Shown here: positions 50,505 to 58,443 of the stretch, one piece after another
Layout: each line of letters begins with the position of its first letter
How positions within the stretch are numbered: the first letter of the stretch is position 1
Assembly (NCBI GenBank): GCA_027013145.1
Contig: JALUXX010000011.1
Span: 256,556 to 320,555 of the forward strand
Length of the DNA stretch: 64,000 bases
Direction: 5' to 3'
From: Gammaproteobacteria bacterium
Lineage (GTDB): Bacteria; Pseudomonadota; Gammaproteobacteria; 21-64-14
Notes under the pieces: generated by a model
The model's database searches: none
What the model saw: the letters and a program-made list of their open reading frames with translations, nothing else
Told to the model about the DNA's origin: nothing
Position numbers and translations under genes: made by a program

Positions 50505-50775
50505 ACGCTTCAGGTGACCCGAGGGTTTCCGGGAAGCCGTCCGAGCGGCCCTGCCGGCGCACTGCGCGCCGCGCGGCCCGCTGCGGGCGCGCCCGACCCG
50601 AGGGATGAAACGGGAAGCCGGTGCGCCGCGTCGCTCCCGCGCGCGGTCATTCCGGCGCTGCCCCCGCAACGGTAGGCGAGTCAAGGTCCGGCATCACGCC
50701 ACTGTGCGTCCGCACGGGAAGGCGCCGGGCCCGGGTCCGACGACCCGCTCGCGAGCCCGGAGACCGGCCTGAAGC
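50505..50775 (+). ncRNA. Cobalamin riboswitch
   Basis: The conserved blocks appear in order: GGTGACC (50513-50519), GGGATGAAACGGGAAGCCGG (50602-50621), the B12-box GCTGCCCCCGCAACGGTA (50657-50674), GCCACTG (50698-50704), ACGGGAAGGCGC (50714-50725) and the closing GAGCCCGGAGACCGGCCTG (50753-50771). Adenosylcobalamin binding should reduce expression of the downstream btuB operon. The 5' part is longer than usual because a second, imperfect GACCCGAGGG...CGGGAAGCCG copy sits at 50516-50539. Confidence 0.95.
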
Positions 50776-50844
50776 GATCGGTCGGTGCTGCGTGGGGCGG
50801 CACACGGCGGGAGTGACCACCACCTCTCCCCGCGGTTACCCGCC

Positions 50845-50896
50845 CCCTTCGCACCCGGATCCATCCGCCGCCCGCGCGGGTGCGCGCGGGGAAGGG
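50845..50896 (+). promoter_or_regulatory. Possible Shine-Dalgarno-sequestering hairpin before btuB
   Basis: CCCTTC-GCACCCG (50845-50857) can pair with CGGGTGC (50877-50883) and GAAGGG (50891-50896), leaving a 7-base bulge. GAAGGG is part of the btuB ribosome site, so this would be the expression platform of the riboswitch by translational control. Confidence 0.55.
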
Positions 50897-50903
50897 AGCC
50901 TTC

Positions 50904-52772
50904 GTGAACCGCCGTCTCCGGGCCGTATCGGTCCTGTTCAGCCTTTGCGCCGCCGGTGCCGCCCGCGCCGCGGAACCGATCACGACCGCGCCGATCGTGG
51001 TGACCGCCACCCGCACCGCGGAGACCGCGGACCAGACGCTGTCCTCGGTCACGGTCATCACCCGCGCGGACATCCGCCGCAGCGGGGCGGTGACCCTGCC
51101 CCAGCTCCTGCGCCAGGTCAACGGACTCAACGTCGCCGGCAACGGGCCGTTCGGCAAGCTCACCTCGGTGTTCCTGCGCGGGACCAACTCCAACGACGTG
51201 CTGGTGATGATCGACGGAGTCCGCGTCGGGTCGGTCACCACGGGGGGCGTTTCCTGGGAGCTGCTGCCGCTGTCGCAGATCCAGCGCATCGAAATCGTGC
51301 GCGGCCCGCATTCGAGCCTCTACGGCTCGAGCGCGGTCGGCGGCGTGATCCAGATCTTCACCCGCCGCGGGCGCGGACCGCTGCACGCCGACGCGAGCGC
51401 GGGCTACGGCAGCGAGGAGACCTATCGCGCCTTCGGCGGGGTATCGGGGGCGCTCGGTCGCGGCTGGCTGTCGTTGCGCGGCGGCGGACTCGGGACCGAG
51501 GGGATCAACGTCAGCCGGCCCGTCCTGGGCTTCAACGAGCCCGATGCCGACGGCTATCACAACGACTCCTTCAGCGCCGGCGCCGGCTACGACTGGGCGA
51601 ACGGTACCGCGGTTCGCATCAATGCGCTGCGTGCCACCGGGACCACGCGCTACGATAACTTCCCGCCCTCGTCGTTCTCCACGCCGCCGAATGCCGACCG
51701 CTTCCTCCAGGAGGTGGTGGGCGGCGTCGTCCGGCTGCAGCCCACGGACGCCTGGACGGTGCACCTGCGCGCCGGGCGCAGCCTGGATGACCGCACCAGC
51801 TTCCGCGAGGGATCGAGTGCGGCGCCGACGCGCTTCGACAGCGAGCGCATCAGCGCCGGCTGGCAGAACGATGTCGCGGTCGGTTCGCACCAGCTCGTCA
51901 CCGCGGGCGTCGATTACCTGGACGACCGTGTCGAGAGCACGACGCGCTATGATCGGACCTCGCGCTACGACGTCGGCGCCTATGCGCAGTATCAACTGCG
52001 CGTTGCGCTCGTGGACCTGCTCGGCGCGGTGCGCCTCGATCACGACGAGCAGTTCGGCAACCACACCACCGGCAACGTGGCCCTCGGTTATCGGCTCACC
52101 AAGGCCCTGCGCCTGACCGCCTCCTACGGCACGGCCTTCCGCGCGCCCACCTTCAACGACCTCTACTTCCCGGGCTACAGCAACCCGAACCTCCAGCCGG
52201 AGACCTCCGACACCGTCGAGGTCGGGGTGCGCGGCCGCCACGCCTGGGGGCACTGGCACGTGGATGCCTATCGCACCGGTATCCGCGACCTCATCCAGCT
52301 CGATGCGCGTTTTATTCCGCAAAACATCGGCCGCGCGAGTATCCGCGGCCTGGAGGCGGGCCTGACGACCCGTGTGCTCGGCTGGCGGCTCGATCTCGGC
52401 GTGGACTTCATGCGCCCGCACGACGAGGTCAGCGGGTTGACGTTGACCCGCAGGCCGGAGCGCTCCTTCAAGCTCGCGCTGGACCGCGGCTTCGGGCGCG
52501 CCCATCTCCATGCGGAATGGATCGCCGAGGGGCGGCGGTTCGACCAGTTCTTCGATCCCACGACCTTCCAGTCCGAGCGTGTGCGGCTCGCGGGCTACGG
52601 TACCCTGGGGTTAGATCTGCGCTATGACCTGACGCCGCACTGGACTCTGAACGCCGCCCTGAACAATGCCTTCGACCGGCGTTACGAGACCGTCTTCGGC
52701 TACAATCAACTCGGTCGCACGGTGTTCGTCTCCGTGCGCTACAGCGGGATCCCCTGGGGCGGGAGCACGTGA
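50904..52772 (+). CDS. btuB: TonB-dependent vitamin B12 receptor BtuB
   Basis: A 622-residue outer-membrane receptor importing cobalamins with TonB energy. The signal peptide is LRAVSVLFSLCAAGAARA, the TonB box APIVVTATRT, then the plug domain (LPQLLRQVNGLNVAGNG...VFLRGTNSNDVLVMIDGVRVG; IEIVRGPHSSLYGSSAVGGVIQIFTRR) and a 22-strand barrel ending in aromatic residues near ...VFVSVRYSGIPWG. GTG 50904 was chosen (GGGA seven bases upstream). Assignment to B12 rests on the riboswitch and the close fit to BtuB. Confidence 0.95.
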   Translation: MNRRLRAVSVLFSLCAAGAARAAEPITTAPIVVTATRTAETADQTLSSVTVITRADIRRSGAVTLPQLLRQVNGLNVAGNGPFGKLTSVFLRGTNSNDVLVMIDGVRVGSVTTGGVSWELLPLSQIQRIEIVRGPHSSLYGSSAVGGVIQIFTRRGRGPLHADASAGYGSEETYRAFGGVSGALGRGWLSLRGGGLGTEGINVSRPVLGFNEPDADGYHNDSFSAGAGYDWANGTAVRINALRATGTTRYDNFPPSSFSTPPNADRFLQEVVGGVVRLQPTDAWTVHLRAGRSLDDRTSFREGSSAAPTRFDSERISAGWQNDVAVGSHQLVTAGVDYLDDRVESTTRYDRTSRYDVGAYAQYQLRVALVDLLGAVRLDHDEQFGNHTTGNVALGYRLTKALRLTASYGTAFRAPTFNDLYFPGYSNPNLQPETSDTVEVGVRGRHAWGHWHVDAYRTGIRDLIQLDARFIPQNIGRASIRGLEAGLTTRVLGWRLDLGVDFMRPHDEVSGLTLTRRPERSFKLALDRGFGRAHLHAEWIAEGRRFDQFFDPTTFQSERVRLAGYGTLGLDLRYDLTPHWTLNAALNNAFDRRYETVFGYNQLGRTVFVSVRYSGIPWGGST

Positions 52773-54436: not shown

Positions 54437-55495
54437 ATGAGTGTTTCCAGATTATGGAGCGCCGTCGCCGGAGCGGGCCTGGCGCTGATGATCGCAGCGC
54501 CGGCCGGCGCCGCCCCGGTGAAGCAGATCACCGGCGCCGGTTCGACCTTCGCCTATCCGCTGTATTCCGCCTGGGCGGACCATTACGCCAAGCGGACCGG
54601 CATCGAACTGAACTACCAGTCGATCGGCTCGGGCGGCGGTATTCGACAGATCGAAGCCCGCACGGTGGATTTCGGGGCGACCGACGCCCCGCTGACGGCC
54701 AAGCAGTTGAAGCAGCACGGCTTGGTGCAGTTTCCGACCGCCATGGGCGGCGTCATCCCCACGATCAACGTCCCCGGAATCAAGCCCGGCCAACTGGCCC
54801 TGAACGGCCGCGTGCTCGCAGACATCTTTTTGGGCAAGATCACCAAGTGGGACGCCCCTGCGATCAAGAAGCTCAACCCGGGGCTGCATCTTCCGGATCT
54901 GCGCATCACGGTCGTCCATCGTTCCGACGGATCCGGGACCACCTTCATCTTCACCGACTATCTGGCCAAGGTCAGTCCGGAGTGGAAATCGACGGTCGGC
55001 TTCGGCAAGGCCGTCAACTGGCCCTCTTCCGGGAACGTCGGCGGGAAAGGGAACGAGGGCGTCGCCGCCTATGTGCAGCGTATCCGGGGCGCGATCGGCT
55101 ATAACGAATACGCCTATGTGCTTCAGAACCACATGAACTATGCCGACATGATCAACCGCGACGGCCGTCGCGTGGCTCCCACCGCCGGCAACTTTGCGGC
55201 CGCTGCCGCCAACGCCGACTGGAAGCATGCGCCGGGGTACTACCTGCTGCTCACCGATCAGCCGGGCGCCAAGAGCTGGCCGATCACGGGCGCGACCTTC
55301 GTGCTGGTTCCCGCACGACCGGCGCATCCCGATAACATCAAGACCGTGCTGAAGTTCTTCCATTGGGGGTTCACGAAAGGCAAGCGGATCGCCGAAAGCC
55401 TCGACTACATCCCGATGCCGCACAGCGTGGTTCGTATGATCGAGAACACCTGGCACCAGGAAATCAAGTATCACGGCCATTCGCTCTGGAAATGA
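54437..55495 (+). CDS. pstS: Phosphate-binding protein PstS
   Basis: A 352-residue periplasmic phosphate receptor of the Pst ABC importer. The signal peptide runs to about residue 25 (ALMIAAPAGAA). Phosphate-binding motifs are ITGAGSTFAYPLY, QSIGSGGGIRQI, VDFGATDAPL and VHRSDGSGTTFIFTDYL. A good AGGAGAAACCC site precedes the ATG. A terminator follows before pstC, so pstS is expected to be made in excess. Confidence 0.97.
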   Translation: MSVSRLWSAVAGAGLALMIAAPAGAAPVKQITGAGSTFAYPLYSAWADHYAKRTGIELNYQSIGSGGGIRQIEARTVDFGATDAPLTAKQLKQHGLVQFPTAMGGVIPTINVPGIKPGQLALNGRVLADIFLGKITKWDAPAIKKLNPGLHLPDLRITVVHRSDGSGTTFIFTDYLAKVSPEWKSTVGFGKAVNWPSSGNVGGKGNEGVAAYVQRIRGAIGYNEYAYVLQNHMNYADMINRDGRRVAPTAGNFAAAAANADWKHAPGYYLLLTDQPGAKSWPITGATFVLVPARPAHPDNIKTVLKFFHWGFTKGKRIAESLDYIPMPHSVVRMIENTWHQEIKYHGHSLWK

Positions 55496-55527
55496 GCTGA
55501 AAGCGGCCTGGAGCGGTCTGTAACGGC

Positions 55528-55557
55528 GGCGGAGGGTGGTTTCCCTCCGCCTTTTTT
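55528..55557 (+). terminator. Rho-independent terminator between pstS and pstC
   Basis: GGCGGAGGG (55528-55536) pairs perfectly with CCCTCCGCC (55543-55551) across a six-base loop, followed by T6. It lies 32 bases after pstS and only 20 bases before pstC, so it is probably a partial terminator that sets the receptor-to-permease ratio. Confidence 0.93.
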
Positions 55558-55577
55558 GCTTTTACACTGAGGCGCGT

Positions 55578-56561
55578 ATGAGTGGGAGTGAGCGGCTCAC
55601 CTTGGCCCTGACCGGCATCGCCAAGCTTCGGCGCGGCAGACGGATCGATGTCCTTTTCCGCTGGATGACGGAGGTCTTCGCCTGGGCGGTTCTACTGGTG
55701 CTCGGCGCCATCGTCATCGAACTGTTACGCGACTCCTGGCCGGCCTTCAGCCGCTTCGGCTTCGGTTTCTTCACCTCCTCGGCCTGGAATCCCGTCACGG
55801 ACGACTACGGCGCGGCCTCCTCTATTTTGGGTACGCTCGTCACTTCCTTCATCGCGATCCTGCTGGCCGTCCCGATCAGCTTCGGTATCGCCCTGTTCCT
55901 CACCGAACTGGCGCCGCTCTGGTTGCGCCGGCCGGTCGGTATCGCCGTCGAGTTGCTCGCGGGGATCCCGTCGATCATCTACGGGATCTGGGGACTGTTC
56001 ATCTTCGCTCCCTGGTTCGCCGATAACGTCCAAATCAAGCTGACCGATTACCTGGGGGGACTGCCCGTGGTCGGAACCCTGTTCCAGGGCCCGCCCATCG
56101 GGCTGGGATGGGCGGTTGCGGGTCTCGTTCTGACGATCATGATCATCCCTTTCATCGCCGCGGTCATGCGCGACGTATTCGAACTGGTGCCGACAACCCT
56201 CAAGGAGTCGGCCTACGCCCTCGGCTCGACCCGGTGGGAAGTCATTCGCCATATCGTACTTCCGTACACCAGCGTCGGCGTGATCGGAGGTATCATGCTC
56301 GGTCTCGGACGGGCGTTGGGCGAAACGATGGCGGTTACCTTCGTGGTCGGCAACGCCCACGACGTGCATGCTTCGTTGTTCATGCCCGGCAACACCATCG
56401 CCTCGACCATCGCCAATGAATTCACCGAGGCCACGTCGCTGCCGCATCGCTCCGCGTTGATCGCGCTCGGGTTGATCCTGTTCGTAATCACCTTCATCGT
56501 ACTGGCTTTGGCCAAGCTCCTGCTGATGCGTCTCGAACGAGCACAAGGGCAAAAGGCGTGA
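55578..56561 (+). CDS. pstC: Phosphate ABC transporter permease PstC
   Basis: A 327-residue permease with about six membrane helices. The EAA-type loop is LVPTTLKESAYALGSTRWEVIRHIVLPYTSVGVIGGIMLGLGRALGETMAVTFVVGN, typical of PstC. ATG 55578 has GAGG five bases upstream; a frame open from 55536 runs back through the terminator. The stop overlaps the pstA GTG. Confidence 0.96.
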   Translation: MSGSERLTLALTGIAKLRRGRRIDVLFRWMTEVFAWAVLLVLGAIVIELLRDSWPAFSRFGFGFFTSSAWNPVTDDYGAASSILGTLVTSFIAILLAVPISFGIALFLTELAPLWLRRPVGIAVELLAGIPSIIYGIWGLFIFAPWFADNVQIKLTDYLGGLPVVGTLFQGPPIGLGWAVAGLVLTIMIIPFIAAVMRDVFELVPTTLKESAYALGSTRWEVIRHIVLPYTSVGVIGGIMLGLGRALGETMAVTFVVGNAHDVHASLFMPGNTIASTIANEFTEATSLPHRSALIALGLILFVITFIVLALAKLLLMRLERAQGQKA

Positions 56562-57424
56562 ACAACGCGCGTTACCTGCGCAGGCGACTGACGAACGTCG
56601 TCAACATGGGGGTCGCCGTCCTGCTGACCGGGTTGGCCCTGTTTTTCCTGGCCTGGATCCTGTTCGTGCTCGCCGCCAAGGGAATCGGCTACGTACATCC
56701 CGCCCTGTTCGTCGAGAGCACGCCGGGCGCAGGTATCCCGGGCGGTGGCCTCGAAAACGCCTTTATCGGCAGCCTCATCATGACAGGACTCGGACTCCTG
56801 ATGGGCGCGCCGGTCGGTATCCTCGCCGCCACCTATCTGGCCGAGTTCGGTCATCACACCCGGCTGGCGATGACTGTGCGATTCATCAACGATGTACTGC
56901 TATCGGCACCCTCTATCGTGATCGGGGTATTCGTCTACGGCGTCGTCGTCGAACCCATGGGGCACTTCTCGGGTTGGGCAGGCGCCATCGCGCTCGCCAT
57001 CATCGCGCTGCCAGTCACCGTGCGAACGACCGACAGCATGCTGCAGCTGGTCCCCGATCAGATGCGGGAGGCGGCCATCGCCCTCGGCACGCCGCGTTGG
57101 AAGGTCACGGTGTGGATCGTCTATCGCGCCTCCCTGCCGGGAATCGTCACCGGCGTCCTGTTGGCGACCGCGCGCATCATCGGCGAGGCCGCGCCGCTGC
57201 TGTTCACCTCGCTCGGCAACCAGTTCCTCACCCTCAATCCCAATCGGCCGATGGCCGCCGTGCCCCAGGTGTTGTTCAACTTCGCCATGGGCCCTTACGA
57301 AAACTGGCACCGGATCGCCTGGGCCGGCGCCCTCACGACCACCCTTCTGGTGCTCCTGCTGATGATCGCCGCGCGTCTGCCTTCGGGGCGTGGTCGATCG
57401 GCGAAATCCGGCCAGGGTCGTTGA
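56558..57424 (+). CDS. pstA: Phosphate ABC transporter permease PstA
   Basis: A 288-residue permease. The EAA loop is LVPDQMREAAIALGTPRWKVTVWIVYRASLPGIVTGVLLATARIIGEAAPLLFTSLGN. It starts with GTG overlapping pstC. The usual next genes pstB (ATPase) and phoU are not found: 413 non-coding bases and then the opposite-strand engB follow. The ATPase must be supplied from elsewhere. Confidence 0.96.
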   Translation: MNNARYLRRRLTNVVNMGVAVLLTGLALFFLAWILFVLAAKGIGYVHPALFVESTPGAGIPGGGLENAFIGSLIMTGLGLLMGAPVGILAATYLAEFGHHTRLAMTVRFINDVLLSAPSIVIGVFVYGVVVEPMGHFSGWAGAIALAIIALPVTVRTTDSMLQLVPDQMREAAIALGTPRWKVTVWIVYRASLPGIVTGVLLATARIIGEAAPLLFTSLGNQFLTLNPNRPMAAVPQVLFNFAMGPYENWHRIAWAGALTTTLLVLLLMIAARLPSGRGRSAKSGQGR

Positions 57425-57700
57425 GCCGCTGCGTGCCGCCCGCCGAGCCGCGTCGGCGGGGGGCGGGCGCGGGCGTCGCGGGAGGTCGGTCGCTGCGGTC
57501 ACGGGGGGCGATCTGCGGGAGCGAACGACTCGCTCTACGGTAGTGGCGCGTGCGACACCGGGCCGGCGGCCCATCGACGGGAGCGGCGGGGTGCGGGCGA
57601 AGCGCGCGGCCGCGGCACCGGACTTGGCGCACCGCGACCACGGACCCGCACCGGCTCGGGTCAGGGCGTGAACTTTCCGCAACCGCCCCGGTCATACCTC
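57425..57700. other. Non-coding interval between pstA and the hairpin cluster
   Basis: No supported gene and no similarity to PstB is seen in any frame. A weak promoter-like pair, GTGAAC (57668-57673) and TCATAC (57692-57697, 18-base spacing), lies just before the hairpin cluster on the + strand. Confidence 0.5.
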
Positions 57701-57826
57701 GTGGGCGCTAGGATTGGCGCCCACCCGCTTTTCCTCCCTGAGCGGGTACATACACCCGGTTTTCCCCAGACCGGGTGGAAGCGTTGCCCCGGTTTTCTCC
57801 CCCCCTTGAAAACCGGGGTTTTTTTT
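57701..57826 (+). ncRNA. Candidate small RNA: four hairpins with C-rich loops
   Basis: Four consecutive stem-loops. H1: GTGGGCGC (57701-57708) with GCGCCCAC (57717-57724). H2: CCCGCT (57724-57729) with AGCGGG (57741-57746), loop TTTCCTCCCTG. H3: CACCCGGT (57753-57760) with ACCGGGTG (57770-57777), loop TTTCCCCAG. H4: CCCCGGTTTTC (57787-57797) with GAAAACCGGGG (57808-57818), loop TCCCCCCCTT, then T8. Three successive pyrimidine loops complementary to Shine-Dalgarno sequences suggest a translation-repressing sRNA. Alternatively it is only an elaborate pst 3' UTR. Bounds and promoter are inferred. Confidence 0.5.
57787..57826 (+). terminator. Strong Rho-independent terminator
   Basis: A perfect 11-bp stem (57787-57797 with 57808-57818) followed directly by eight T. 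It ends + strand transcription from pstA or from the candidate sRNA, and lies 12 bases beyond the end of the opposite engB gene. Confidence 0.95.
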
Positions 57827-57837
57827 GGCCGCGTCGT

Positions 57838-58443
57838 TCAGGCGTCGGCATCCCCCAGCCAGCGGTCGAGCACCGCTTCCAGTTCATCGAGCCCGGTTCC
57901 CTGTAGGGACGAGAATACCTGCACGCCGACATCCGGACCGCGTCCATTCATTTCGCGAAGTACCTGCATGCGCGCGATGTTTACCCGGTTGCGGGACAAC
58001 TTGTCCGCCTTGGTGAGCAGGGCGTGTACCGGCAGCGAGGCGGCCGCGCACCAGCGAAGCAGGTTTTCGTCACCCGCGCCGAGGGGGTGGCGGATGTCCA
58101 TGACCAGGATGATCCCGCACAGCGAGCGTCGCCGCTCGAGGTAGTCGGTGACGCTGCGTTCCCAGCGCGCCTTCAGTGCGCGCGGGACCTTCGCATAGCC
58201 GTAACCCGGCAGGTCGACGAGGCGCCGCGTCGGCCCGACCTCGAAGAAATTGAGCAACTGCGTGCGCCCCGGCGAACGGCTCACCCGCGCGAGACCGCGA
58301 CGGCCGGCGAGGGCGTTCAGTACACTCGACTTGCCGGCGTTGGAGCGCCCCGCGAAGGCCACTTCGCGCCCGACATCGGGCGGCGCACCGGTCCGGTCCG
58401 GCGCGCCGGTGAGAAAGCGCGCATTCCGATAGCGTCGACTCAT
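57838..58443 (-). CDS. engB: Ribosome biogenesis GTP-binding protein EngB (YihA)
   Basis: A 201-residue essential GTPase needed for large-subunit assembly. G1 is GRSNAGKSS (32-40), G2 RTQLLNFF, G3 DLPGYGYAKVP and G4 TKADKLS, all canonical. ATG 58443 gives the normal length (E. coli 210); the longer frame to 58722 runs into the cytochrome gene on the other strand. The ribosome site is weak. It diverges from cytochrome c4, its usual neighbour in gammaproteobacteria. Confidence 0.96.
   Translation of the reverse strand: MSRRYRNARFLTGAPDRTGAPPDVGREVAFAGRSNAGKSSVLNALAGRRGLARVSRSPGRTQLLNFFEVGPTRRLVDLPGYGYAKVPRALKARWERSVTDYLERRRSLCGIILVMDIRHPLGAGDENLLRWCAAASLPVHALLTKADKLSRNRVNIARMQVLREMNGRGPDVGVQVFSSLQGTGLDELEAVLDRWLGDADA

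Follow-up and report, generated by a model that had tools for sequence, protein, structure and literature searches.

A predicted variant of the anti-hemB small RNA, with three exposed C-rich loops and a sigma-E-type promoter, beside engB in a gammaproteobacterium

Introduction

The gap between polA and engB holds the Pseudomonas small RNA (sRNA) ErsA (PMC8575079), whose synthesis depends on sigma-22 (PMC7565897), and Spot 42 of Escherichia coli (RF00021) occupies the same slot. In Xanthomonas, the polA locus encodes sX13, an RNA of three stem-loops that uses its C-rich loops, independently of Hfq, to repress mRNAs carrying G-rich motifs (PMC3771888). The anti-hemB family (RF02837) includes ncS04 of Burkholderia cenocepacia, which is 105 nt long, is expressed and binds Hfq (PMC5688073, PMC4603805). 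Expression as a small RNA has been shown within this family for ncS04 only (PMC5688073), and no condition-dependent change in its expression was seen (PMC5688073, PMC4603805). The alphaproteobacterial alpha-r14 or cuckoo RNAs, among them NfeR1 and CcsR, have repeated hairpins with anti-Shine-Dalgarno (anti-SD) loops, sometimes in tandem, and are defined by one CCUCCUCCC motif repeated unchanged in all three hairpins (PMC10746234).

Here we analyze a 64,000-nt stretch of a gammaproteobacterial genome (contig JALUXX010000011.1), referred to as the window. An earlier note on this DNA had described four hairpins after pstA as a candidate anti-SD sRNA of cuckoo-like design, possibly tied to phosphate starvation. 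The element is a real, free-standing sRNA gene, and its genomic position corresponds to that of ErsA, sX13 and Spot 42.

Results

The predicted transcript spans 57702-57826 on the + strand (about 125 nt), its start placed by promoter spacing and its end by the terminator. It contains four + strand stem-loops (SL) with essentially perfect stems. SL1 (57703-57722), which has a G-U-type closing pair, encloses GGAU between GGGCGCUA and UGGCGCCC in a purine-rich loop (AGGAU). SL2 (57723-57747) presents an anti-SD-like loop, UUCCUCCCU, between ACCCGCUU and GAGCGGGU, and SL3 (57753-57777) a C-rich UCCCC loop between CACCCGGUUU and AGACCGGGUG. SL4, the intrinsic terminator (57786-57826), carries the C-rich loop UCCCCCCCUU between GCCCCGGUUUUC and GAAAACCGGGGU, its hairpin (57786-57819) running into U8 (57819-57826). 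These four hairpins dominated the fold of 57660-57830, whose minimum free energy of -80.2 kcal/mol was far more stable than that of dinucleotide shuffles (-59.6 +/- 4.3; z = -4.83, 0 of 200), and each of the four loops was more than 99% unpaired in the folding ensemble. The hairpins were thus found where the earlier note had drawn them, and its description of loops 2-4 as pyrimidine-only or nearly so was accurate; the purine loop of SL1 lay outside that description. In this genus, AGGA in the SL1 loop (57711-57714) is complementary to UCCU in the SL2 loop (57731-57739), a possible internal kissing contact or decoy. Most relatives have different SL1 loops, often containing CCC.

An Rfam search, which the earlier note had proposed as a check, matched 57721-57826 to anti-hemB over the full model (1-81) with 51.7 bits, just 2.2 bits over the cut-off of 49.5; the copy of the genus-mate scored 44.9 bits, under the cut-off. 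The models of ErsA (RF01719; 30.3 bits, E = 6e-4) and sX13 (RF02232; 25.9 bits) scored the window RNA below their cut-offs of 50 bits. A second, weak Rfam match of the genus-mate (L010, 29 bits) and the weak ones elsewhere in the genome of the window itself (L002-L008) resemble common terminators or hairpins of no relation to the sRNA.

The distribution of the RNA was examined in 369 genomes of Gammaproteobacteria as defined by GTDB, betaproteobacteria included. RF02837 matched 118 of these genomes and 87 of 272 genera at E <= 1e-5, and a covariance model of our own, R1, built from 38 RF02837 matches, detected copies in 185 of the 369 genomes (141 genera). Roughly one in two of the Gammaproteobacteria sampled, in this broad sense, therefore carries the sRNA. 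The window copy, the only one in its genome, scored 100.9 bits with R1, whose seed included it. Eight genomes of a separate 200-genome sample of the phylum had R1 matches, one of them from another class; that match (G446:C5:79754-79917; 32.7 bits, borderline E of 8e-6) may be a distant relative or a chance hit. No earlier account of the class-wide reach or of the promoter was found in the literature searched, most subscription journals lying outside it.

Some loci carry the sRNA in tandem, with 2 to 5 copies about 120-340 nt apart and often a GAACTT promoter for each copy (L053, L059, L070, L075, L076, L080, L098, L100-L103, L185, L320, L325-L327). Comamonadaceae-type copies are a separate sub-type: engB is absent from their vicinity, the promoter is sigma-70-like, and a conserved GTGTGACAGCAAA segment takes the middle place of the C-rich SL3 (L126, L130, L137, L140, L141, L143, L145, L148, L154, L155, L158, L160, L161, L166, L171, L177-L179, L181, L189, L194, L198, L201, L203).

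Alignments of these copies revealed both covariation of the stems and conservation of the loops, the evidence on which the earlier note had staked its proposal. Among 117 copies (alignment A2), 96.2% of cells paired and all 16 modelled pairs had double changes, with a covariation score of 0.428 compared to 0.173 for shuffled alignments (0 of 500 shuffles) and at most 0.076 for slid controls. The 45 copies from outside the seed (alignment A3) gave a similar picture: 94.6% of cells paired, 14 of 16 pairs had double changes, and the score was 0.479 vs. 0.193 when shuffled. Helix 1 covaried at 3 of 3 modelled pairs; the helices of SL2 and of the terminator also covaried, the latter with 97% of cells paired. 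SL3 was missing from the RNAalifold consensus because MAFFT misaligned its arms, and it rests on single-sequence folds, not on the covariation count. The SL2 loop CCUCCCU was near-invariant across the class, although the conservation of SL2 and terminator sequences is partly ascertainment since all copies were found by models containing them; the -35 element and the neighboring genes were absent from the search models. CUCC lay inside a hairpin loop in 152 of 162 copies (12% of shuffles), and at least three C-rich loops were present in 88 of 162 (0.06% of shuffles). Loops of the types CCUCCCU, CCCC and CCCCC were kept among relatives. Between the two species of the genus, conservation spanned 57652-57825, from promoter through terminator, and was at background level outside.

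A sigma-E/AlgU-type promoter, GAACTT-N16-TCATA (57670-57696, + strand), ends 6 nt before SL1; its -35 element GAACTT is at 57670-57675 and its -10 element TCATA, after a 16-nt spacer, at 57692-57696. The -35 element (PFM TGAACTTTT) recurred at the same position in other copies: in 69 of 118 copies (2.4 expected), GAACTT preceded the Rfam match by 46-65 nt, in most cases by 50-55, and it was also found upstream of 25 of the 45 out-of-sample copies (0.65 expected). Likewise, GAACT was at the right position in 120 of 162 distinct copies, 99 of which had TC exactly 16 nt past the hexamer. The profile across copies, TGAACTTTT-N16-GTCTTA, is at the sequence level the published AlgU consensus GAACTT-N16/17-TCtgA (PMC3819740, PMC10651043). 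Both genomes of the genus (G000 and G001) encode RpoE (321 bits), and GAACTA-N16-TCTAC, which has the same layout, lies upstream of each rpoE gene. In members from Burkholderiaceae and Comamonadaceae the sigma-E element has been lost and, as read by eye, sigma-70-like boxes are present instead, consistent with an ncS04 level that stays the same from one condition to another. On both grounds, stress control is not universal among members.

The conserved neighbor that defines the locus is engB (yihA/ysxC; 57838-58443, - strand; TIGR03598, 217 bits), which is convergent with the sRNA and lies outside it. It is also convergent in Burkholderia ambifaria (L150) and Burkholderia sp. TSV86 (L174), with Rfam scores of 84-86 bits. 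The surroundings of the RNA, a few kb around each match, were fetched for 106 genomes. The usual order was polA and sRNA in one direction, engB convergent with them, then a cytochrome gene and dsbA, both pointing the same way as polA. In 92 of the 106 genomes, one or more of four genes stood beside the sRNA: engB, polA, the gene of a c-type (cytochrome c4-like) cytochrome, and dsbA. The engB gene was present in 70 (median distance 45 nt from the RNA match) and polA in 65. Of 81 sites with the exact SL2 pattern in named genomes, 48 were near engB, in genera that include Burkholderia, Cupriavidus, Aromatoleum, Nitrosospira and Ectothiorhodospira.

In the window, engB, the cytochrome gene and dsbA are present. 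The polA gene, which adjoins the RNA in most relatives, is on the same contig but at a distance of about 169 kb, and its side of the locus has therefore been replaced by pstSCA; the pstA stop codon is 278 nt 5' of the element on the same strand. The pst genes neighbored the sRNA in the window genome only (1 of 106), and the genus-mate, which kept the sRNA and engB, has an ORF without a family match in place of pstA; on this comparison the pst adjacency is a rearrangement in this species. The operon itself is split, with pstS-pstC-pstA at 54437-57424 and pstB (G000:C65:28006-28746) on another contig, as pstB also is in the genus-mate. The "pstB slot" in which the earlier note had placed the element is thus a coincidence of rearrangement, and the phosphate link that it had drawn finds no support in synteny: the adjacency is unique to this genome, a sigma-E-type promoter belonging to the RNA lies 3' of pstA, and the neighbors conserved with the RNA are engB and polA. 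Elsewhere in the window, an ordinary cobalamin riboswitch (RF00174, 69.9 bits, 50568-50786) lies directly upstream of a BtuB-like TonB receptor gene (50880-52772).

Computed pairing of the SL2 loop with AGGGAGGAA reached -14.8 kcal/mol, compared to -11.0 for the standard 16S anti-SD tail at the same site. Extended SL2 complements just before start codons numbered 12 in the two genomes of the genus, not clearly above the reversed-pattern control (8 vs. 2 in G000, 4 vs. 7 in G001), and this pattern search found no target common to both species. The genome contains hfq (Hfq, 102 bits).

Discussion

By score, narrowly, and by locus, the window RNA is a predicted member of the anti-hemB family, a variant set apart by its sigma-E-type promoter and by having three loops that are C-rich; by descent, it is best read as a gammaproteobacterial form of the anti-hemB RNA. 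The two share the SL2 and terminator sequences, mostly the same engB-linked locus and the character of an independent sRNA. They differ in that the window RNA also has C-rich SL3 and SL4 loops, whereas only the SL2 loop is C-rich in Burkholderia copies, whose promoters are sigma-70-like (TTGAGA...TATGAT). ErsA resembles it in locus (by way of the engB side), in the sigma-E-type promoter (GAACTT-N16-TC in the window), in a C-rich terminator loop and in the weak Rfam match, but its Rfam consensus lacks the CCUCCCU SL2. With sX13 the window RNA shares the polA locus and the stem-loop design, although the sX13 loops are 4C/5C. sX13 is the closest functional model and best experimental parallel, and the window RNA is best read as working in the same way. 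The likeness to cuckoo RNAs that the earlier note had seen is confined to loop design: Rfam family, locus and hairpin order point instead to anti-hemB, ErsA and sX13. The window RNA has no CCUCCUCCC array, its loops differing from one another (UUCCUCCCU, UCCCC, UCCCCCCCUU), and CcsR, an RNA of alphaproteobacteria, shares its operon with a DUF1127 gene. Spot 42 shares the slot but is not based on C-rich loops, and a test for homology with R1 gave no match at the E. coli locus.

The combination of its own promoter, covarying stems and kept loops argues for the discrete sRNA with repeated anti-SD-like loops that the earlier note had put forward. We consider it likely that the gene encodes an autonomous, sigma-E-promoted sRNA of the anti-hemB form whose C-rich loops lower translation of selected mRNAs with G-rich sites under envelope stress. 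The RNA (57702-57826) would be transcribed from the RpoE/AlgU-type promoter and ended by its own terminator, and its exposed loops (CCUCCCU, CCCC and CCCCCCC) would pair with G-rich sites in selected mRNAs, either Shine-Dalgarno sequences or enhancers, lowering translation of these mRNAs when the envelope is stressed. It thus probably reduces synthesis from selected genes in response to envelope stress rather than phosphate starvation. From these features we infer that the RNA is transcribed, that sigma-E controls it and that it represses targets, as well as any part that Hfq may play.

Could the element be nothing more than the elaborate 3' UTR and terminator of the pstSCA mRNA, either functionless in itself or with a Pho-linked role? 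Its place 278 nt 3' of pstA on the same strand, with no other convincing terminator found in between, would allow this, but we regard it as very improbable given that pst is a neighbor in 1 of 106 genomes, that the genus-mate has an unrelated ORF there, that a conserved sigma-E-type promoter stands between, and that stems covary and loops are kept across the class. It is distinctly unlikely that the RNA is a true sRNA with C-rich loops directed chiefly at a protein, or at sponging another RNA, and not at ribosome-binding sites. The pattern search yielded no conserved mRNA target, the C4-C7 loops of SL3 and SL4 exceed the C length needed by an anti-SD, and the SL1 loop, with its purines (AGGA), might pair with a further RNA; against these stand the near-invariant CCUCCCU loop with its strong pairing to AGGGAGGAA and the reporter tests in which C-rich loops of sX13 and of the alpha-r14 RNA NfeR1 acted on mRNAs (PMC3771888, PMC10746234).

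The envelope-stress link itself would be wrong if the promoter were constitutive or served a different ECF sigma factor. AAC-type -35 boxes are recognized by several ECF groups, the genome has four RpoE-like ECF matches, and beta-proteobacterial members have switched promoters. We nevertheless judge such an error unlikely, as the promoter matches the AlgU consensus in full, spacing included, and shares it with the rpoE upstream regions of the genus, and as sigma-22 is required for ErsA at this locus.

The likely reading, a sigma-E-promoted sRNA with translation-blocking loops, turns a Rfam family named for Burkholderia into a class-wide regulator with envelope stress as its predicted inducer and SD-blocking loops as its predicted mechanism. 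More tentatively, and at somewhat less than even chance, an ancestral sigma-E-driven anti-SD sRNA at polA-engB in the Gammaproteobacteria, betaproteobacteria included, may have given rise to anti-hemB, sX13, ErsA and perhaps even Spot 42, which would then have diverged from it while promoters were switched and tandem duplications arose. The authors of the sX13 study asked whether the polA locus encodes sRNAs elsewhere (PMC3771888), and the present locus offers a concrete answer. It also makes testable the idea that, outside the enterics, the core sigma-E regulon may include an sRNA that uses C-rich loops rather than MicA/RybB-type seeds.
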